A stretch of 64,000 nucleotides of DNA from Sipunculus nudus (lineage: Eukaryota; Annelida; Sipuncula; Golfingiida; Sipunculidae): assembly GCA_026874595.1 (NCBI GenBank), contig CM049311.1, positions 14,041,676 to 14,105,675 of the forward strand. Reading direction: 5' to 3'. The notes beneath the pieces are model-generated. The model made no database searches, was not told the DNA's origin, and saw only the letters and a list, made by a program, of their open reading frames with translations. Both the position numbers and the translations under genes were made by a program. Shown one piece after another: positions 1-64,000 of the stretch (within the stretch, counting starts at the first letter, position 1; each line of letters starts with the position of its first letter).

Positions 1-2285
1 AGCCTTGAAAACATGACTCACGCGCCCTTTTCAATGAACTTATGGAGCTTGGGACGGTTTTGGTGGCAAGCTGCCGCTATTAATCACTTTGTCCTTTGGT
101 TTAACGAGTTTGACTTGTGCCCGAGGCTGTAATGCTGTTATAGAATACAACTCGCATGACAATATATGATGATATGTTTGTGATACTTACTATTAACGTA
201 TTTAGACTGTCTTTGTATTATTCCTTTTGTAAAAGAAGTAATAGGCAAAGGTATAGTTTTTTGTTTACTTCTGGTTTATGTTGAATGTTCTTTTAGGGTA
301 CAGCATTTATGTAGATTCTTGTGTAATTGATATTTAAACTTGTAAAGCTGTTTCTAACCAAATTAAAAAAAAGTGTTTCTGTAATATTGTTTCACAGTGT
401 CATATCTTATAAGCCTATCGTGTTCCTTTTTTCGTCTAAAGTCCATTATTTTAAGATAATTACAAAAGTTTAGAATTTCATGGATTCATAAATCTCATTT
501 GTGCATTTCATGTTACTTTCGAAATTTGTCATTGTGGTATGTCGTCATTGTAATAAATACTAGAGCAAGGTAAATAACAACTTTTTAGTGTTTGAGTTTA
601 AAATAAGTTAACCATTTCAGTCATATTTTAAACATTAATATTCACTTTTTAACGAGTTTCTTTTGTGCACACGAAATTATGATTAAACTAAAAAAAAATC
701 TCAAGAAATGTGAAAGGTTAATTCAGTCTGATTCCAAACCAATTAGTTCATTAAGAGTTACTTGACAACAGTCATGTTACAGTAATAATATTTATACATT
801 TACAATTTCCAATAGATATTCCTGCTATTCTGTGAAGTCCGCACACAACTGACGAACAAGTTCTCCAAAGGTATGAACAACAGTTGTGAATATATTAGGA
901 CGTATGTGCAAGTTCATGTTTGTCGACTGAGAATCATGACTAACTGGACATCATGACCCACGGGTCACTTGTTGTATTCGTGTTCTTGCTTTCAATTATT
1001 TTTCCTAAGAGAACATTTTATATAGTCTAACTACAATTTTAAAAGCATATGTACCAGGTACCCTTATATATAGACGTATATATGTAAGTGGATGTTTAGC
1101 AGTATTCGCTACATGTAGCAATTCGTTTTTGTCGGTCACGCATTCCGCATGCCGGATCCGCGATCTCACCTTACTTATTTAGTCAATACCGATTTTATCC
1201 GCATTACGCATGCCGCATTTCATACATAAGGAATCTTAGCTGAAGTTTTTAAACTGGTACTGGTCCCCTCACGACTCCCCTGGTGTCTCGGCAAAATTTA
1301 CTTCTCAGAATGCAATTTCCTTAAACAGGCTTGTTGTAACCCATTGAATATTGAGCATTGTTGAATGTGTGATGTCTCATTTCTCTGACCGTAGATGGCT
1401 GGAAGGACTATTTCTTCAACACATTTCTTAAATTGTTAACTATGTAAATGATGACTAACTACTCAGGCCGCCTCGTCTCCGTTTCAGTTTAAAGGCGAGG
1501 CTTACTTTCTATAGAATCTTAATGGCAGGCCATCGCACTCTAAAGCGGGTTTTGTGTTCTACTTCAAAAGTATCTGAAAACCCCGTCTATAGTCTAAGCA
1601 CTGTCGGTGTATTCCAGTATGAATAAGCTAAAGGTGGCGTTCTTCTTGAAGTCAGTTTAACTACTTTTTATTCGATTGCTAAGAAACCACCATTAAGAAA
1701 AGAAATTACATTAAAAAAACGCATGCCTTGGACCGGATTCACTACCCAAATAGTATATATTTCCCTAAAATATATTTTCTCGAGTTTCAGTCAATACAAA
1801 ATAAAGCGTATACGTTGGTAAAAGTAGCACCTTGCAGCTATTCCCTGTTATACTGGCTTTAAGTATACATGATGGACTCTTTTTTTGTATCATTTATTGT
1901 ATAAATGAGAAAGAAAGTTCAAGTGTATTTATACCAGAGGGACACTTTCTCTGTAGATTCTTTGTATTATGAAGCCGTATGTATTCATGTATGCAGCTGT
2001 TCCTCGGAAATGTTTGTCTGCCGAGGAGTTTCTTTTCCATGATCACGCAAGACAAGTATATCCACAGTACGTTAGCTTGAATCTTGCTGAGCACGCACAT
2101 ATTTTCGGCAACAGATGCTCAGACTATTATTCTTTGTCCGATTCATCGATATACCCGAGGCTGCAGGTGTAGATTTTTTTTCTTATCCGATAAGTTTTGT
2201 TTGGTATTTTTCCCTGACGGAAAAACTTTATCCGTCCTCCCGTCTGCCAGTCCGTTTATATAACACAGATCATAACCGTTGGACT
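1..2285. other. Upstream intergenic DNA, no gene seen
   Basis: AT-rich DNA with scattered CpG and no open frame with coding character or splice-site support. An AATTAAA-like hexamer near 362 followed by T/G-rich sequence could be the poly(A) site of a gene ending left of the window, but this is weak. Short open frames near 1.9-2.3 kb have no recognisable protein features. Confidence 0.5.
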
Positions 2286-2345
2286 TTTTTTTTTGTTTTT
2301 TGGGGTTTTTTTTTTTTTTTGCTGGGGGTAACCGCCTCCATTTTT
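2286..2345 (-). repeat. SINE-like repeat, poly(A) tail end (family A)
   Basis: A T-rich run followed by GGGGGTAACCGCCTCC is the reverse complement of the family A 3' end (GGCGGTTACCTCC then A-rich) seen at 15030-15056, 16677-16700, 31212-31255 and 34303-34345. The body of this copy seems to continue at 2846, with another repeat lying between. Confidence 0.6.
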
Positions 2346-2740
2346 AAAGGTGCCTATTGACCTACCTTTTTGAAAAAAGAATATATGTGACTTCTGTTAC
2401 TTGTATTTATAACTGATAAGGTAATTTTGGTTGTGAAAAGTTCGTATAAGGCTTCGTTAAGAAAGTATGAAATTGTTTATCAAATTTTTTTTGTAAATAC
2501 AGCAATGTTGTCAAACGGGAAAAACATGTAATCTAAGGTGGTAGGTTGCAAATATGTGGAATTGGAAAGGCCTATTGCAACTTCAGGCTTTTCTGACTTG
2601 CTGCCAGATGCTCTTGTTGAAATTGTTTTGATTATTTTGGTGGGCCTCTACGTATTATAAACACGTTGATATAAACAAAACAAGCAGCCTGTGTACGGTG
2701 ATATCCACGTTTTCTGGCCTACTTTTATTAAAGCTTTAAA
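2340..2740 (+). repeat. Interspersed repeat R1, plus-strand copy
   Basis: About 400 bp that recurs in inverted orientation at 31890-32448. Shared stretches include AAAGGTGCC at the start, the segment around GTAATCTAAGGTGGTAGGTTGCA near 2529-2550, TTGATATAAACAAAACAAGC near 2668-2687, and GATATCCAC followed by TTTTCTGGCCTA near 2700-2722. No coding capacity and no clear terminal repeats are visible. This copy lacks the insertion present in the other one. Confidence 0.75.
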
Positions 2741-2845
2741 GGGATTACCTTTAGATTATAAAGGTCATATAGGTGATAGGGTCCCTCTAATGCTAGCATA
2801 ACTAAGTATATATTCATCTGCAGAATGCCATTCCGGTTTCGGACT

Positions 2846-3025
2846 ACGTGACAGGGCAGTATCACACTGTTCCTCTCACACCCTGGTGTAAACCAGGCCA
2901 CGTGACCTTTGCACCTGCGGGCCGTGGGTTGTGCATTTCCCATTGCTGGGACATAGCTCCCCACACGTGTTTGTGAGTGAAACACGGCTGTTTTGCACGG
3001 CCTTCCAATAAAGCCTGCAGAATCT
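2846..3025 (-). repeat. SINE-like repeat body (family A)
   Basis: GACAGGGCAGTATCACAC, CACCTGCGGG, CCCATTGCTGGG and the ACACGGC segment match 16701-16860 in the same order and orientation. The open frame on the minus strand across 2728-3072 is a by-product of this repeat. Confidence 0.7.
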
Positions 3026-4548
3026 AAACCGCCAGGCCCTTGAAGTTCAAACTTCACATGCTGACAGGTCATGATAGAATCTGTGTGAAAACCAAATAGT
3101 ATGTCACTGTGACTTATATTCTCCTAGTTATGTAGTAAAAACATCAGAATCCATCAATCAGTCTGTTAACAGGGCACAAATAACAACCGGGAAAAACAAG
3201 AACTTCAAAACTTCACTATATTCACAGGTCCTGATATATCCTCTGTGGAAACTGAAATATATATAGGCAACTTGGACAAATATTTAAATTCCCCCTTAGG
3301 ACACTTGGCATCGTTCCCGACACTCTAAGACCACAAATGGGCATTTCTTAAGCGTCACCTTGAAGGAATCGCGTGACATAGATGCAGTGCCCCACCATAA
3401 ATATGAAGAGTGAAAGTATCTGTTCTGTCTTTTCTATCTATTCATTTACTGTTCATCATATTTTAAATGAAAACAGGCCTATATATTCTGGATTGTCTGG
3501 CTGGTAATTTTTCACCCATTATATATAAAGCATATGCCCGATCCTTCGTCGGGACACGACCGTTGGTTTGTCATTCATATGTAGGGTAACACTATAAAAA
3601 CTGTCTCCCATTATTAATGGATTAAAGTTTCACGTATTTATATTACAATATCTTATGTTATTCAATAATTTACTTGGGACTGGACCACGTCTTCTTGATC
3701 AGACCACGCACTGTCGCAGGGATCCTTATTTTAGCTAAGGGAAATGAGAAGAGAGTAGGACTAATGCGTGTTTTGGCAACAACTTACGAAGTAAGGCAAG
3801 ACCACATACTAGTACTCATTTAGTACACAGTTTGAACAATTGTCCATTTCTCGATAAAATCACACCAACAAATAGGGATTCAAGCTGCTGTGAACAAACC
3901 AGGTCTGACCACCGAGATATTAACACATTACGCCATCTGTCGGCAAAACGCCGAATCTTTTTTTTGTGTTGCGTGTCACTTCACCATCCAATTTCCGAGG
4001 AGTTTTAAGAGTAAATGAGTAAAAATGGTTCCTCTGTCATTAGAATTGATTCGCTCATGCTGCAGTCTTTAGAGCGTCGGTATTTTAAATGACAACAAAT
4101 GAATATCATTATTACATTGGAATTTAATTCTGAAATAAGATTTGTCATAATTTTCAAACAAAGATGAGCTATTGCTTTCACACAAAAAATTTGAAATCCA
4201 TACCCAACCTGATTTGTCAGCTCATGCAATCTTCATTCTTTGCCTAACTTTTGAAAGGATCGTCCACATGTATTGCGAATTAACTAAATGTGTCATTATC
4301 CGGGATAAGTTGAAATTTATCACGCAACCTATACAGCACGTATAGATGTGTATAGCTCAATGGCGCTATTATTCAAATTACAAGATTCAACTGGAATTAT
4401 CTTAACTTAATACGCTCAGGCCAGACTTCAATGTAAAATGCCCAAAAAATGTCTGCTCTGGTACTTATCTAAACTTTACTTTTTTTTGTCCATGTTTCAT
4501 TTTCTGTTCTAGACTTTTAATCTTCAAAATTTATTATTGTTAATATTA

Positions 4549-7560: not shown

Positions 7561-8903
7561 TATTTCCTGGAATATATAGCACTAAAAAGCTCCATTCCTC
7601 GCTTAGACGACCACTTTGAAAATGTGGCCGAATTGTGGTCGTAATTTCTAGGTCTTACATTAATTGCTTACGAATATCCTTGTCAGTGCACTTCCGTTAT
7701 GTAATCTCACATGAAAGGGACGTCTCCTCCATAGAACCCGAGAGCAAAACGTAGTCTCCTGATTCCTGACTCTTCTCCGTCCCACTTTATTATGTATAGC
7801 TTATGGTAACATAACAAGCTGTACTTTATTGATGAGGCTCGAACTCTCCCAGGGGAATCTTTAGACAGGTATTAAGGTAATCGTCTACTTAGACACTGAA
7901 GGTAGTGGCTGAGGAGAAAGAAGATTATGCATTCCATGAAAAAAAATCTTTTTGTATTTCCAGGTGCACCCAAGTATATCTATGATAAGCATGTGGTCAC
8001 ATCCGTAGCCGTGACGCAAACGTAAGTAGGCCTACAAGAGTCAGCGCTGAGCGCACGTTTGAGTTCCCTTTTTCGGCGAACCATCGGCACTAAGCCCACC
8101 CTTCCAACAGATGTCGTTTCTACTCAAAACGAATCTCTTGTTTCGACGCTGTTGGATGGCCGAGACTACAAGTCTCAACTGTCAAACTTCAAAACAAAAT
8201 GTGTCATTTCAAGGAAACACCCTCTATTTACATTTCACATTCGCATGCTAACAAATTTTTACTTATTACGTAAAGTCCTTACCAATATATTAACCCATGT
8301 TTATGTAATTTACTTTGAAACAATTCTTATTCAACCCATTCTAACGGACAATAGTTTCCTTTTCACTACATTTATACCTACGCCGCTGGTGTATTCAGGA
8401 GCCCCGGTGCATTGTGGGACTTAGATTTTGAATCAAACAATCCCTAAACACCAGAGTCTAGCCCATCCTGGGCTTTAGTATATTTACGTTTTCTACTAAA
8501 ATGTTAAAATAAAACTCGATGTACCGATAGACGTTACTCAGTACTAGCTCGTATAACTATAGCCCTGTAAAGTCCGTATGGTGCATCCCTGATATATGCA
8601 TATTAGGGCGTCACAACTCTCCTGACGATTTTCTCGCATTTGCATATCAGGCCGTCACGCCTCCTGTGAATGGCATCGTTGCTATGAGGACGCTATAAGC
8701 GGTCCCATTAGCAATAGCTCAACCCGCTTGGTAACATTCACACTAAAATCATGTATACAGAAAGTCAATACACGAACCTTCGTGTTCTATGATATATCCC
8801 TGCTGTTCGAACATTACGGTCCATAGGCCAAATGTTAGTGCACTGTAGACAATATCGCAACGATTTTGTAAAGGGTATTTGCCACTTGCCAGTTGAAAGT
8901 CTT
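7561..8903. other. No gene seen
   Basis: A 121-codon open frame at 8059-8424 starts at a TTG and has no recognised domain. At 8592-8665 a short direct repeat, TGCATAT followed by an AGGGCGTCAC-like block, occurs twice about 54 bp apart. No RNA gene could be recognised. Confidence 0.4.
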
Positions 8904-8912
8904 CCCACTCTT

Positions 8913-8990
8913 TAGCCCGATTGAATCGGACTCTAAGATAAAAACTCTTGATAAAGAGTTTTTATCTTAGAGTCCGATTCAATCGGGCTA
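8913..8990. mobile_element. Micro-MITE: 78-bp perfect hairpin with 9-bp TSD
   Basis: Two perfectly complementary 37-bp arms (8913-8949 and 8954-8990) separated by GATA. The arms begin TAGCCCGATTGAATCGGACT. A perfect direct repeat CCCACTCTT flanks the element at 8904-8912 and 8991-8999, which looks like a target-site duplication. A 9-bp TSD is typical of Mutator-like (MULE) insertions. There is no coding capacity and almost no interior beyond the inverted repeats. Perfect arms and perfect TSD imply recent insertion or strong arm homogenisation. Confidence 0.85.
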
Positions 8991-9180
8991 CCCACTCTTA
9001 AGTTGCCAACACGCTGATCGTTTCAGTCAGCCGGTACATGAATAACAGTTTGACTGAGTTCGTCGCGTTTGGACCTGAATATCACACGCTGATTGGCTGA
9101 GCTAGAGATACATTTTAAACCGGCCTGCTTTGAAAGTCGATGGTCTGATAAACGGGGACACACTGACTCACTGAGGCTGA

Positions 9181-46197: not shown

Positions 46198-46213
46198 ATG
46201 TCTATATATATGT

Positions 46214-48286
46214 CGAGGCCCAGATTAGAATCTGGCCCAATTTAAAACTGGGCCAGCCCAGATCAAAATTTTGATTTGGACCGGCCCAGATCAAAATTCT
46301 AATCTGGGATAGACCAGTTTTAAACTGGGCCAGCCCAGATTAAAATTTTGATCTGGGCCGGTCCAGATTAAAATCCTGTGGTGAAGACTTCAGGATTTAA
46401 ATCTGGTCTGGACTGATTTTAAACTGGGCTGGCCCAGAATAGAATTTTGATCTGGGCTGGTTAAGTTTACAATCCTGTGGTGGACTGATTTTAAACTGGA
46501 CCGGCCCAGATCAAAATTTTAACCTGGGCTAGTCAAGATTACAATCCTGTGGTAGACTGATTTTAAACTGGGCCTAACCAGATCAGAATCCTGATCCTAT
46601 CTTAGGCTAGCTTGATTTTTTTTCATCTTAAATCAGATAATACAGTAAGCATTTATTCCAGATACACCATTTTTAAGGGCACAAAACACATAATGAACAA
46701 GATCATTTAAAATATTTTAGTGAGGAAAAAGTTAACGAACAAATGCAATGTGCTTCTTTGGTTTCATCTATTCTTCAAGCATGCAAGTTCACATTTGAAC
46801 TTCACCTAAACCAACTACCATATTTTATCACAGTTTAGGATATGTGTCAGTTCAGAAACATCTACTTGACTTAATATCAACATTTTCAACTTAACTGAGA
46901 TAGTTTTCTGTTTTGAATATCAAAATTACTTGTGTAATATTAAATATATACATGCATAATTAAATACCAGCTTTACTCATTTATAAGTGAACAAAAGTAA
47001 TTATCAGTCTTGATGCTCATTTTTGTGAGCAGCATGACATTGTGCCCTAACAATGGGCTTGGGAGAGGTTTGTGATACCATTACTGTAATTTTCAATAGC
47101 AGAAAATCCACAGCTGAGAAAATTATATGATTGCTGTCATTTGGCAGTCTCAAAAATAGAGGTGAACATGAGTGAAAATTGGATTTAGAATTTTATTTCA
47201 GAGGGTGACAAACATGGTGGAGGATTCACTTTCGAGTTAATAACTTAAAAAAAAGCTAATCTATTAACTGATAACTAATCTAAATTGAAGTTAGTTAAAT
47301 GCTGCTATACAAATATTCTCTACCTTCAGTAGTTAAAATGCTGAGTTGGTGAATATTGTTCCCCTTGTTCTATCTAAATACATTCTGATTGTGTTAATAA
47401 TATATGTACACTAGATGTTTAAATAGATGTTTCAGCTAGGGCCTTCGAATCTTTCCTTAATATGTAGTATGTTATAAGTTCTAGGTCCAATGTAACAGTA
47501 TGTGCAGATTTTTAAATGGGTGACTGGGGGGAGGGGGGGGGGGGGGATGATCACGGACCAAAACCCCAACTTATGATAAATGATAAATAACTTTAAATAA
47601 CAAATAAAATTTTGAATTTACTGGTCTTTGATCACAATTTAAATATTTTGTAAAATATATTAATAATTATTGATTAAATTTTGTTTTAGTATGTTGAATC
47701 AATGCACGTGTTCAGCAAGCTATATTTCTAGTTTTAGCTTTAAAATACCAATGTTTAACATGATTATTTTATAATTATATTTTAGACATTTCACATAAGA
47801 GGTAAAATTACAAAATAAATATGACAGGAGTCCAACCAATGATATTTTCATAGAATATGAAATAAATTCATAAAATATTAATTATTATTTACTTACAATG
47901 TTTTACAAATTCTTTGAATTGATGAAAGGCCAGCTAGTTAAATATAGTGTAATTGAAGCCAGCCTAGGAGTAGATTAGGATGCTGATCTGGGCTGGTCCA
48001 GTTTAAAATTAGTCCACCACAGGATTGTTAACTTGACTGGCCCAGATCAAAATTCTAATCTGGGCTGGCCCAGATTCAAATCAGTCCAGACCAGATTTAA
48101 ATCCTGAAGGCTTCACCACAGGATTTTAGTCTGGACCGGCCCAGATCAAAATTTTAATCTGGGCTGGCCCAGTTTTAAACTGGTCTGGCCCAGATTAGAA
48201 TTTTGATCTGGGCCGGTCCAAATCAAAATTTTGATCTGGGCTGGCCTAGTTTTAAATTGGGCCAGATTCTAATCTGGGCCTCGACA
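46214..48286. mobile_element. Foldback element 2 (arms built from CTGGGCCGGCCCAG-type units)
   Basis: The left arm 46214-46613 begins CGAGGCCCAGATTAGAATCT and the right arm 47956-48286 ends with its reverse complement; both lie next to TATATA. The arms are made of alternating TTTTAAACTGGGCC, GGCCCAGATCAAAATTTTGA and CAATCCTGTGGTGGACTG units, many themselves palindromic. The left arm has two copies of a roughly 73-bp unit where the right has one. The 1.34-kb centre is AT-rich with no open frame. Size and structure recall FB/TU-type foldback elements, but I recognise no named family. Confidence 0.85.
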
Positions 48287-48722
48287 TATATATATATGGA
48301 TCTTTTGCTTGTCCTTCTGCTTTCTTAATGTTTATTTAAATCATCACTGTAGCTTTTTGAAAGGATTTATCCCAGCTTCTAGCCTCGAGAAGCTTCAATT
48401 CAATTCATACTGAACAACAATTACCAAATGAAGTCATAACCTCTTGGTACCAGAGAGAAAAGCTCGAGGGACGATTTATTCTTGAATTGATAATGATTTT
48501 GCTGATTTTTTTCCTGAAGTCCTTATTGGTATGTCATAGAAAAAGCTGATGACAAGGTGTGCAGCTTTGTAAAGGTTATTTATTGTTAGTACAAAATCTT
48601 TTAAAGCAGGATTTGGTGAGGGAAATATTTGTTTGGAAAAGCAGATTATGTTAACGCATGGCAGGACCTGGGCATGCATGGATTCCCAGAAGGCCTAGAC
48701 ATCGTGCATCAACCCAACATTG

Positions 48723-54756: not shown

Positions 54757-57700
54757 CTTGGATCATATCATACTCTGATCATCAAACTCTCATCATGCTC
54801 TGATCATGCAGTGATCCTCATTCTGGGATCATCATGCTCTAATCATGCAGGAAACCTCATTCTTGGATCATCATGCTCTGATCATGCAGTGATCCTCATT
54901 CTGGGATCATCATGCTCTGATCATGCAGGGATCCTCATTCTGGAATCATCATGCACTGAACATGCAGTGATCCTCATTCTGGAATCTTCATGCACTGAAC
55001 ATGCAGGGATCCTCATTCTGGGATCATCATGCACTGATCATGCAGTGATCCTCATTCTGGGATCATCATGCACTGATCATGCAGGGATCCTCATTCTGGA
55101 ATCATCATGCACTGATCATGCAGTGATCCTCATTCTGGGATCATCATGCTCTGATCATGCAGTGATCCTCATTCTGGGATCATCATGCTCTGATCATGCA
55201 GTGATCCTCATTCTGGAATCATCATGCTCTGATCATGCAGGGATCCTCATTATGGAATCATCATGCACTGATCATGCAGTGATCCTCATTCTGGGATCAT
55301 CATGCTCTGATCTTGCAGTGATCCTCATTCTGGGATCATCATGCTCTGATCATGCAGGGATCCTCATTCTGGAATCATCATGTACTGATCATTCAGTGAT
55401 CCTCATTCTGGGATCATCATGCTCTGATCATGCAGTGATACTCATTCTGGGATCATCATGCTCTGATCATGCAGTGATCCTCATTCTAGGATCATCATGC
55501 TCTGATCATGCAGTGATCCTCATTCTGGAATCATCATGCACTGAACATGCAGTGATCCTCATTCTAGAATCATCATGCACTGATCATGCAGTGATCCTCA
55601 TTTTGGAATCATCATGCTCTGATCATGCAGTGATCCTCATTCTGGATAATCATGCACTGATCATGCAGTGATCCTCATTTTCTGATAATCATGCTCTGAT
55701 CATGCAGTGATCCTCATTCTTGGATCATCATGCACTGATCATGCAGTGATCCTCATTCTGGGATCATCATGCTCTGATCATGCAGTGATCCTCATTCTGG
55801 AATCATCATGCACTGAACATGCAGGGATCCTCATTCTGGGATCATCATGCACTGATCATGCATTGAACCTCATTCTGGGATCATCATGCTCTGATCATGC
55901 GGGGATTCTCATTCTGGAATCATCATGCACTGAACTTGCAGTGATCCTCATTCTTTGATCATCATGCACTGATCATGCAGTGATCCTCGTTCTGGAATCA
56001 TCATGCACTGAACATGCAGGAAACCTCATTCTGGGATCATCATGCACTGAACATGCAAGAAACCTCATTCTGGGATCATCATGCACTGAACATGCAGGAA
56101 ACCTCATTCTGGGATCATCATGCTCTGATCATGCAGGGAACCTCATTCTGGGATCCTCATGCCCTGATCATGCAGGGATCCTCATTCCGGGATCATCATG
56201 CTCTAATCATGCAGGGAACCTCATTCTGGGATCATCATGCTCTGATCATGCAGGGATCCTTATTCTTAGATCATCATGCTCTGATCATGCAGTGATCCTC
56301 ATTCTGGGATCATCATGCTCTGATCATGCAGTTATCCTCATTCTGGGATCATCATGCTCTGATCATGCAGGAATCCTCATTCTGGGATCATCATGCACTG
56401 ATCGTGCAGTGATCCTCATTCTGGGATCATCATACTCTGATCATCATTCTCTGATCATCATACTCTCATCATGCACTGATCATGCAGTTATCCTCATTCT
56501 GGGATCATCATGCACTGATCATGCAGGGATCCTCATTCTTGGATCATCATGCTCTGATCATGCAGTAATCCTCATTCTGGGATCATCATGCTCTGATCAT
56601 GCAATGATCCTTATTCTGGGATCAACATGCTCTGATCATGCAGGGATCCTCATTCTGGGATCCTCATGCACTGATCATGCAGGGATCCTCATTCTGGGAT
56701 CATCATGCTCTGATCATGCAGTGATCTTCATTCTGGTATCATCATGCACTGATCATGCAGGGAACTTCATTCTGGGATCATCATGCTCTGATCATGCAGT
56801 GATCCTCATTCTGGGATCATCATACTCTGATCATGCAGGGAACCTCATTCTAGGATCATCATGCTCTGATCATGCAGGGACCCTTATTCTGGAATCATCA
56901 TGCACTGAACATGCAGGGATCCTCATTCTGGGATCATCATGCACTGATCATGCAGTGATCCTCATTCTGGGATCATCATACTCTGATCATTATACCTTGA
57001 TCATCATACTCTCATCATGCACTGATCATGCAGTTATCCTCATTTTGGGATCATCATGCACAAATGCAGGGATCCTCATGTATTGATCATGCAGTGATCC
57101 TCATTCTGGGATAATCATACTCTGATCATCATACTCTGATCATCATACTCTCATCATGCACTGATCATGCAGTTATCCTCTTTCTGGGATCATCATGCAC
57201 TGATCATGCAGGGATCCTCATTCTGGGATCCTCATTCACTGATCATGCAGGGATCCTTTCTCTGGGATCCTCATGCACTGATCATGCAGGGATCATCATT
57301 CTGGGATCCTCATGCACTGATTATGCAGGGATCCTCATTCTGGGATCCTCATGCACTGATCATGCTGGGATCCTCATTCTGGGATCCTCATGTACTGATC
57401 ATGCAGGGATCCTCATTCTGGGATCATCATGCACTGAACATGCAGGGATCCTCATTCTGGGATCATCATGCACTGATCATGCAGGGAACCTCATTCTGGG
57501 ATCATCATGCTCTGATCATGCAGTAATCCTCATTCTGGAATCATCATGCACTGAACATGCAGTTATCCTCAATCTGGGATCATCATTCACAGATCATGCA
57601 GTGATCCTCATTCAGGGATCATCATGCATGCACTGATCATGCAGGGGTCCTCATTCTGGGATCATCATGCACTGAACATGCAGGGATCCTCATTCTGTGA

Positions 57701-58118
57701 TCATCATGCACTGATCATACAGGGATCCTCATTCTGGGATCATGCACTGATCATGCAGGGATCCTCATTCTGGGATCATCATGCACTGAACATGCAGGGA
57801 TCCTCATTCTGGGATCATCATGCACTGATCATGCAGGGAACCTCATTCTGGGATCATCATGCTCTGATCATGCAATGATCCTAATTCTGGAATCATCATG
57901 CACTGAACATGCAGTTATCCTCAATCTGGGATCATCATGCACTGATCATGCAGTGATCCTCATTCAGGGATCATCATGCATGCACTGATCATGCAGGGGT
58001 CCTCATTCTGGGGTAATCATGCACTGAACATGCAGGGATCCTCATTCTGGGATCATCATGCTCTGATCATGCAGTGATCCTCATTCTGGGATCATCATGC
58101 TCTGATCATCATGCTCTG
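54757..58118 (+). repeat. Minisatellite 2: about 85 copies of a 39-bp unit
   Basis: The unit is GATCATCATGCTCTGATC followed by ATGCAGTGATCCTCATTCTGG. Variants are CTCTGATC/CACTGATC/CACTGAAC and GTGATCC/GGGATCC/GGAACC. A nine-unit block repeats at 351 bp (9 x 39): GCATGCACTG occurs near 57626 and 57977. A variant cluster with CATACTCTGA recurs at 56431 and 56977 (546 bp, 14 x 39), then at 57116. Because 39 is a multiple of three and one plus-strand frame has no stop, frames of 308 and 368 codons arise, giving 13-residue repeats such as GSSCSDHAVILIL. No start context, splice sites or non-repeat sequence supports a protein, so they are treated as by-products. Confidence 0.95.
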
Positions 58119-58754
58119 ATCTCTGATCACCACGTACTGATTATCATGTCATGGTCTTCATGTCTGACCTTCATTGTTTACAAGTTCAGAACACCATTTT
58201 CTAAAAAAAAAATATGATCTGATCATGCTTTGATCCTAATGCTCTGATAATCATGCTCTGATCATTGTGCGCTGATCTCTGATCATCAGGTACGGATTGT
58301 CATGTCATATGATCTTCATGTTCTCATTTTCATTGCTTGCTCCAATCATCCTGCTACTTATGATAATCTTTCTCTGCACAATCACCTTTTCCAGATCATG
58401 CTATGCTCCTTTTGTACTGATCTTACTGTAACCATATTCTCTGACCATCACGCTGTTGTGATCATGCCTTAATCAGCAAGCTCTGATCATGTTTCTGATC
58501 CATACTCTGTGGTTACCATATGGTCATCATGCACTGTATTATAATGTTCTAATCCTGATGCTGTGAACTTTATGTTCTGATCATCATTCTCTGATTGCCA
58601 TTATATGACCTTCTTGCATTGTGAATGCTCTGACCTTTATGTCCTGATCATCAAGTTCTTATCCTTATGCCGTTATCCTGGTGTGATCGTCATACATCTT
58701 CTGATTATCATGATTTTGATAATCATGCTCTGATTAACATCATGTTCTTAACAT
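58119..58754 (+). repeat. Degenerate zone between the 39-bp and 17-bp arrays
   Basis: Irregular GATCATGCTCTGATC, TGATAATCATGCTCTGA and ATCATCATGTTC words without fixed spacing. It appears to be decayed repeat from the same ancestor. Confidence 0.75.
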
Positions 58755-59649
58755 CATCATGCTCTCACCCTCATCATGCTCTCATCTTCATTATGCTCTC
58801 ATCCCCAACATGCTCTCACCCACATCATGCTCTCACCCACATCATGCTCTCACCCTCATCATGCTCTCATCCTCATCATGCTCTCACCCTCATGCTCTCA
58901 CCCTCATCATGCTCTCATTCTCATGCTCTCACCCTCATCATGCTCTCACCCTCATCATGCTCTCACCCTCATTATGCTCTCACCCACATCATGCTCTCAT
59001 CATCATCATGCTCTCACCCTCATTATGCTCTCACCCACATCATGCTCTCACCCTCATCATGCTCTCACCCTCATCATGCTCTCACCCTCATCAAGCTCTC
59101 ACCCTCATCATGCTCTCACCCTCATCATGCTCTCATCCTCATCATGCTCTCACCCTTATGCTCTCACCCTCATCATACTCTCACCCTCATCATGCTCTCA
59201 TCCTCATCATGCTCTCACCCTCATGCTCTCACCCTCATCATGCTCTCACCCACATCATGCTCTCACCCTCATTATGCTCTCACCCTCATGCTCTCACCCT
59301 CATCATGCTCTCACCCTCATTATGCTCTCATCCTCATCATGCTCTCATCCTCATCATGCTTTCACCCTCATGCCCTTACTCACATCATGCTCTCATCCTC
59401 ATCATGCTCCCATCCTCATCATGCTCTCACCCACATCATGCTCTCAACCTAATCATGCTCTCACTCACACCATGCTCTCATCCTCATCATGCTCCCATCC
59501 TCATCATGCTCTCACCCACATCATGCTCTCAACCTAATCATGCTCTCACCCTCATTATGCTCTCATCCTCCTCATGCTCTCATCCTCATCATGCTCTCAT
59601 CCTCATGCTCTCACCCTCATCATGCTCTCATCCTCATTATGCCTTCATG
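58755..59649 (+). repeat. Minisatellite 3: about 53 copies of a 17-bp unit
   Basis: The unit is CATCATGCTCTCACCCT, with CACCCA, CATCCT and ATTATG variants and occasional loss of CAT. Three plus-strand frames stay open for 250-325 codons because the unit contains no plus-strand stop in any frame; the products are CSHPHHALTLIMLSPSS-type repeats. They are not considered genes. Confidence 0.95.
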
Positions 59650-63908: not shown

Positions 63909-64000
63909 TTGATTAATGTCTTGTTGTATGTCTATGTATACTTTTATATTTTAATTAAAATATAAAAGTATACATAGACATACAACAAGACATTAATCAA
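63909..64000. repeat. Perfect 92-nt palindrome reaching the window edge
   Basis: Arms of 46 nt are exactly complementary with no spacer, centred on TTTTAATTAAAA between 63954 and 63955. The outermost bases are TTGATTAATG and CATTAATCAA. It may extend beyond 64000. It is either a hairpin-type element or an inverted-duplication artefact of sequencing or assembly. Confidence 0.95.

Follow-up and report, generated by a model that had tools for sequence, protein, structure and literature searches.

The hairpin at positions 8913–8990 of the window (the whole 64,000-nt stretch of Sipunculus nudus DNA analysed here, C6:14041676-14105675, in a genome of 1.43 Gb and 153 contigs) is a real transposon insertion of 78 bases with a true 9-bp target-site duplication, and this insertion is probably recent. 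On balance, we favour the interpretation that the element is an end-only, non-autonomous AcademH-like copy, and that tiny copies of this kind arose by loss of the interior of longer insertions, often in place. They form a class of minimal inverted-repeat insertions tied to a helicase-bearing group of transposons on which we found little literature.

The hairpin and its insertion site

The insertion and its surroundings comprise the following features.

8839–8903, no strand: left flank, lying in a dispersed host repeat, with four aligned paralogs empty at this position
8904–8912, no strand: left copy of the target-site duplication, CCCACTCTT
8913–8949, + strand: left arm, the terminal 37 nt of an A-type end (TAGCCCGATTGAATCGGACTC...)
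8950–8953, no strand: 4-nt loop, GATA
8954–8990, − strand: right arm, 37 nt, perfect complement of the left arm
8991–8999, no strand: right copy of the target-site duplication, CCCACTCTT
9000–9065, no strand: right flank, into which the host repeat of the left flank continues

A first-pass annotation of this DNA had described a 78-bp element that was all hairpin, with perfect 37-bp arms and a GATA loop, and this description was borne out: the 37 + 4 + 37 nt are arranged as stated, the arms are 100% complementary, and DNA folding gave −43.2 kcal/mol against a mean of −6.5 kcal/mol for 200 shuffles (z −17.9), none of which folded as well. The 47 nt at 8944–8990 are identical to the A-type ends of elements of 615, 651 and 726 bp. 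With up to three mismatches, the terminal 20-mer occurs at two sites in the window, where 0.01 were expected, and these are the element's own two ends.

The perfect 9-bp duplication and the transposed nature of the element, both claimed by the same annotation, were supported by the insertion site. The joined flanks have at least 41 matches in the genome, from 40 scored candidates out of 400, and two of these matches are the window's own halves. Four paralogs of the host repeat were fetched, and all four lack the insertion and carry the 9-mer singly, as CCCACTGTT in three and CCACCTGTT in one, so that the empty site fits an insertion as had been proposed. The variant CCCACTCTT is present in both copies in the window, as duplication on insertion requires. 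Nor is the element a single copy: a genome-wide search for its terminal 20-mer, allowing three mismatches, returned 653 + 609 = 1,262 matches, in comparison with 7 + 10 = 17 for a backwards control 20-mer. Given the empty paralogs, the hundreds of relatives and the perfect duplications at many loci, and with nothing found in its favour, the probability that the hairpin is a chance palindrome or an assembly artefact is practically nil.

Long relatives and the genes linked to their ends

To characterize the family, we used 100 listed perfect 20-mer ends, which reach C16:42.67 Mb and make up 77 loci. There are two main end types, A (TAGCCCGATTGAATCGGACTCTAAGATAAAAACTCTTTATCAAGAGTCCGATAACTATAGGG...) and B (...GGACTCAATATTATTAGGCCCTGCCATATATTGAGTCCGATAGCCATA...), which have their first 21 nt in common and both contain the subterminal palindrome ATCGGACTC...GAGTCCGAT. 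The long relatives are typically ~560 bp for B copies and 615, 651 or 726 bp for A copies, the 651-bp A relative having perfect 276-bp arms. A 33-nt A arm has 53 genome matches and its control none, and only 13 matches were obtained with an inner A stretch of 30 nt. Of 33 long copies, 26 could be typed and none of these joins an A-type with a B-type end. A variant end, A2 (CTCTTTATCTTGAGTCC), is found in the long copy L082 and, less exactly, in L101, and in both of these the two ends cease to resemble one another near nt 44, close to the position at which the tiny copies break; perhaps the inverted end was ancestrally only ~45 bp long. L082 was scored as A2 on the left and A on the right, although its right end leaves both arms near nt 43 and, since it departs from both, no clean A/A2 parent was seen.

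Several other loci are recorded here as separate observations. L008 (1501–2694) is a 1,194-bp B copy which holds another inverted-repeat element near its right end, with ends TAGTCCGTTCCAGCACCCC... and an apparent TA duplication, as read by eye. L071 (C2:34780892) and L072 (C2:34791230) present the same flank and end twice, 10.3 kb apart, apparently a duplication with its breakpoint inside the transposon; C2:34780892 had been considered as a 10-kb element and was rejected, as it shares with C2:34791230 the flank and ~40 nt of the end, beyond which it diverges. For the one-ended loci L074, L102 and L108, no second end was found within 2.8 kb. The interior of the 726-bp copy (A726) was likewise rejected as a coding remnant, the stretch being single-copy.

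A link to protein-coding genes came from an A end at C14:21842701, which matches A726 with 100% identity over 391 bp and is followed by a helicase gene. The identity passes the 276-bp terminal repeat and reaches to ~45 bp short of the putative start codon of the helicase, and A726 thus shares this stretch to just before the helicase start, as expected of a deletion derivative. The gene contains the Pfam domains DEAD and Helicase_C; RecQ is the best NCBIfam match for both exons, with scores under the full-length cut-off because single exons were given, and WRN/RecQ entries top the PDB list. A second, damaged helicase copy on C16 is 83 and 88% identical in two pieces, with one stop, and is located 13.4 kb inward from another A end, in the same orientation. 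Downstream of the C14 helicase, and convergent with it, is a DUF6589 gene, whose domain match (E 5e-7) scores 29.1 bits where the cut-off is 27. Across the genome there are 26 DUF6589 matches; 13 of the 26 (12 loci) lie no more than 20 kb from a helicase match, and all 13 are convergent with it. As random shifts produced a mean of 0.03 such pairings and at most two, the pair is a repeated unit. The putative full element appears to consist of an A-type end, a RecQ-type helicase gene and a convergent DUF6589 gene, with the linkage observed at one end, and we infer that the DUF6589 protein is the putative transposase of the family. No right end of the C14 element was found in the 9.5 kb read, nor among the 53 A-arm matches, the 13 inner matches or the 100 perfect ends listed, and no mention of DUF6589 was found in the literature searched.

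AcademH is reportedly a lineage of the Academ DNA transposons, attributed to Kojima in 2020. We file the present family as AcademH-like, with modest confidence, on the basis of its duplication length, its helicase and the shared ends. According to PMC10045372, AcademH makes 9- or 10-bp duplications, which are linked to its helicase; the family described here makes 9-bp and, once, 10-bp duplications, and its helicase gene lies behind an A end and is placed inside the element by that one end, in keeping with the helicase encoded by AcademH. The passages of PMC10045372 on AcademH do not mention tiny end-only copies such as those found here, and in the literature searched, by title and the start of the abstract, there were none for AcademH.

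The first-pass annotation had instead called the element Mutator-like and expected a MULE with the same terminal inverted repeat elsewhere in the genome. This label fared poorly, and movement by a MULE transposase now appears very improbable. The 9-bp duplication would suit it, although such a length is not specific to Mutator, as would the long terminal repeats of the relatives and the abundance of MULEs in this genome, in which there are at least 131 PF10551 matches (150 of 252 candidates scored). However, the 131 scored matches are all more than 30 kb away from the 100 listed perfect ends, which reach C16:42.67 Mb, the smallest distance being 30,447 bp; no TAGCCCGATTGAATCGGACT-type ends with up to five substitutions were found in the five MULE loci that we read; and the same ends are tied instead to the helicase/DUF6589 pair. 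The A-type relatives, with 276 bp of inverted end in 651 bp, do resemble in their long near-perfect inverted ends Foldback elements such as Tm1 of root-knot nematodes (Mutator/Foldback), but no link to a Mutator transposase was found for the family here. As for the MULEs themselves, 43 of the 131 matches carry a 607-aa open frame, so that they probably represent a young expansion, and one locus, L065, contains a MULE transposase gene with an FLYWCH domain (1567–3366) and, nearby on the opposite strand, a C-type-lectin ORF.

Sizes, joints and breakpoints of the tiny copies

The set of tiny copies analysed numbers 31 (32 candidates, minus the false pairings L045 and L062, plus L056) and spans 45–125 bp. 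Target-site duplications, scored as the best match within 2 nt of the element ends, are perfect in 18 of the 31, with 17 of 9 bp and one of 10 bp (the 45-bp copy L048); nine more have one mismatch, one has two and two have three, and L056 has no duplication. Among the 77 loci derived from the listed perfect ends, 25 are tiny (45–98 bp), 33 are long (523–1194 bp) and 19 are unsized (13 with one recognised end, five not fetched and one the helicase element). None of the 58 sized copies with two recognised ends falls between 131 and 499 bp and sizes in the family are bimodal. Random internal deletion of a 563-bp copy is predicted to place 83% of products in this empty range. Some loci have weak second ends, with seven errors in L076 (493 bp, duplication with two mismatches), L093 (453 bp) and L097 (284 bp) and five to seven errors in L077, L089 and L106; these were left unsized because seven-error matches arise 2.7 times per shuffled 801 bases. 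L076 could be a true mid-size copy, and L077, L089 and L106 match B over 458, 254 and ~334 bp respectively and then diverge.

In composition, 16 of the tiny copies pair two A/A2 ends, eight pair two B ends and seven pair an A-type with a B-type end, and in most of them ~20–49 nt of each end is kept. The two stubs meet by microhomology, by direct joining or through short filler, as in L023 with 9 nt. The joint of the 78-bp type has the microhomology AAGAGT, and the 84-bp joints overlap by 2 bp when scored without the A2 arm and by 6 bp with it. Breakpoints were determined by ungapped extension, because gapped alignment falsely extended L003, L033, L036 and L060, although ungapped extension shortens the indel-bearing copies L061, L081 and L088. 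In elements with an overlap of at most 2 or with filler, 10 of 42 ends break exactly at GA^GTCCGAT, against a mean of 3% and a maximum of 13% in 2,000 runs of a simulation with uniform breakpoints and without later mutations; the counts are not all independent, as some of the copies may have a common origin. This site lies 45 nt inside the A end and 49 nt inside the B end and, despite A and B sequences differing before it, breakpoints focus there in both subfamilies.

Clustering of the 31 tiny copies at an edit distance of at most 4 gave 25 clusters, of which 22 are singletons. Four sites carry the 84-bp joint, in diverged form at two of them, and the 78-bp unit recurs exactly at two sites, a number that rises to four when one edit is allowed: L009 and L010 are identical 78-bp units in opposite orientation with different duplications, and L011 and L013 are within one edit of them. 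Two B-type centres each occur at two sites. At the other extreme, the 75-bp L078 retains 70 nt from one end and 6 nt from the other, and its duplication is perfect.

Possible routes to the tiny copies

In the route that we favour, a longer copy, or a tiny unit, would insert into the dispersed repeat and duplicate 9 bp; the whole stretch that separates the subterminal palindrome of one end from that of the other would then be lost, and two stubs, mostly of ~20–49 nt, would be joined via microhomology, directly or with a short filler. This probably happens when a break related to the transposase is repaired at a site already holding a longer copy, in which case the ends may be copied or kept only to ~45–49 nt before being joined. 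The breakpoint focus may mark a stretch covered by the transposase, or a second cut. Both ends contain an AAGAGT/ACTCTT repeat, which can account for the joint of the 78-bp class, and the perfect 37-nt arms need no special event, because the 651-bp relative has perfect 276-bp arms. L078 bears directly on the order of events, as an element with 6 nt of one end could hardly insert in that form and with a perfect duplication; for this copy, it suggests that the interior was lost once the element had inserted.

Counting against collapse, A-type and B-type ends are joined in seven of the 31 tiny copies in comparison with none of the 26 typed long copies, and collapse of known parents does not explain these mixed copies. 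The recurrent 78-bp, 84-bp and B-centre junctions also fit mobile tiny units, that is, 78- and 84-bp elements which formed rarely and were then cut and pasted by the transposase of the family, a possibility that we take seriously without expecting it to hold. The identical units of L009 and L010 with their different duplications, together with L011 and L013, the 84-bp joint at its four sites and the paired B-type centres all speak for it. On the other hand, the tiny copies are mostly singletons, L078 has a perfect duplication without a usable right end, recurrent microhomology and breakpoints can themselves yield recurrent joints, and a duplex of 45–78 bp is stiff for the pairing of its own ends. 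From its perfection, the annotation had concluded that the element moved recently; a recent insertion probably took place, but that the 78-bp unit itself moved is doubtful in view of the 22 singletons and L078.

A further reading, which we regard as unlikely, is that the transposition machinery cuts a second site, GA^GTCCGAT, and turns full copies into stubs of ~90 bp that retain the old duplication, some of which may then move as tiny cut-and-paste units. Both the breakpoint focus in the two subfamilies and the size gap would be consistent with this. Such cutting predicts elements that start at the inner site, and there were none among the 13 inner matches: by coordinates, seven belong to the A726, A615, A651 and C14 copies and one to L062, and of the other five, which were fetched, four keep a degenerate outer end and in one, L121, the cut lies 14 nt outside the site. 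The inner motif resembles the terminus at 7 of 10 positions, a likeness equalled in 19% of random 70-mers. Less probable still is snap-back copying, in which one end, folded on CTCTT/AAGAG, would serve as its own template and be the source of both arms. The A end does hold CTCTT-TATC-AAGAG, the 78-bp product is its snap-back and the arms are perfect, but joining two identical ends gives the same sequence, and the seven tiny copies with two different ends cannot be snap-backs.

Returning to interior loss as the favoured route, its products can be set beside a known class. MITEs and the deletion derivatives of abortive gap repair are short and non-coding, and keep both ends and a target duplication. 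The tiny copies are similar to MITEs in being non-coding and numerous and in having inverted ends and a target duplication. They differ in their size of 45–125 bp, with no intermediate sizes among the sized copies, in the focus of their breakpoints at one conserved site, and in having mostly one-off junctions rather than one amplified sequence, with two to four copies of the 78-bp type and four of the 84-bp joint. From deletion junctions of this kind one can learn which route of repair was taken and how much of a transposon end is protected. Should the tiny units be mobile, they would have implications for how small an element can be and still transpose by cut and paste; should they be immobile, they would be footprints from which the frequency of collapse of longer copies can be gauged.

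The window contains other repeats as well. A 323-nt inverted repeat (46203–46525 and 47972–48294), 93% complementary, with its halves 1,446 nt apart and rich in CTGGGCCGGCCCAG-like palindromes, is perhaps another foldback-like element. Large minisatellites at 54790–58109 and 58738–59642, with 39/117-bp and 17-bp units, create long repeat open frames. Finally, a perfect palindrome of 46 + 46 nt without a spacer occupies 63909–64000 and, as it lies at the very end of the window, is perhaps cut.
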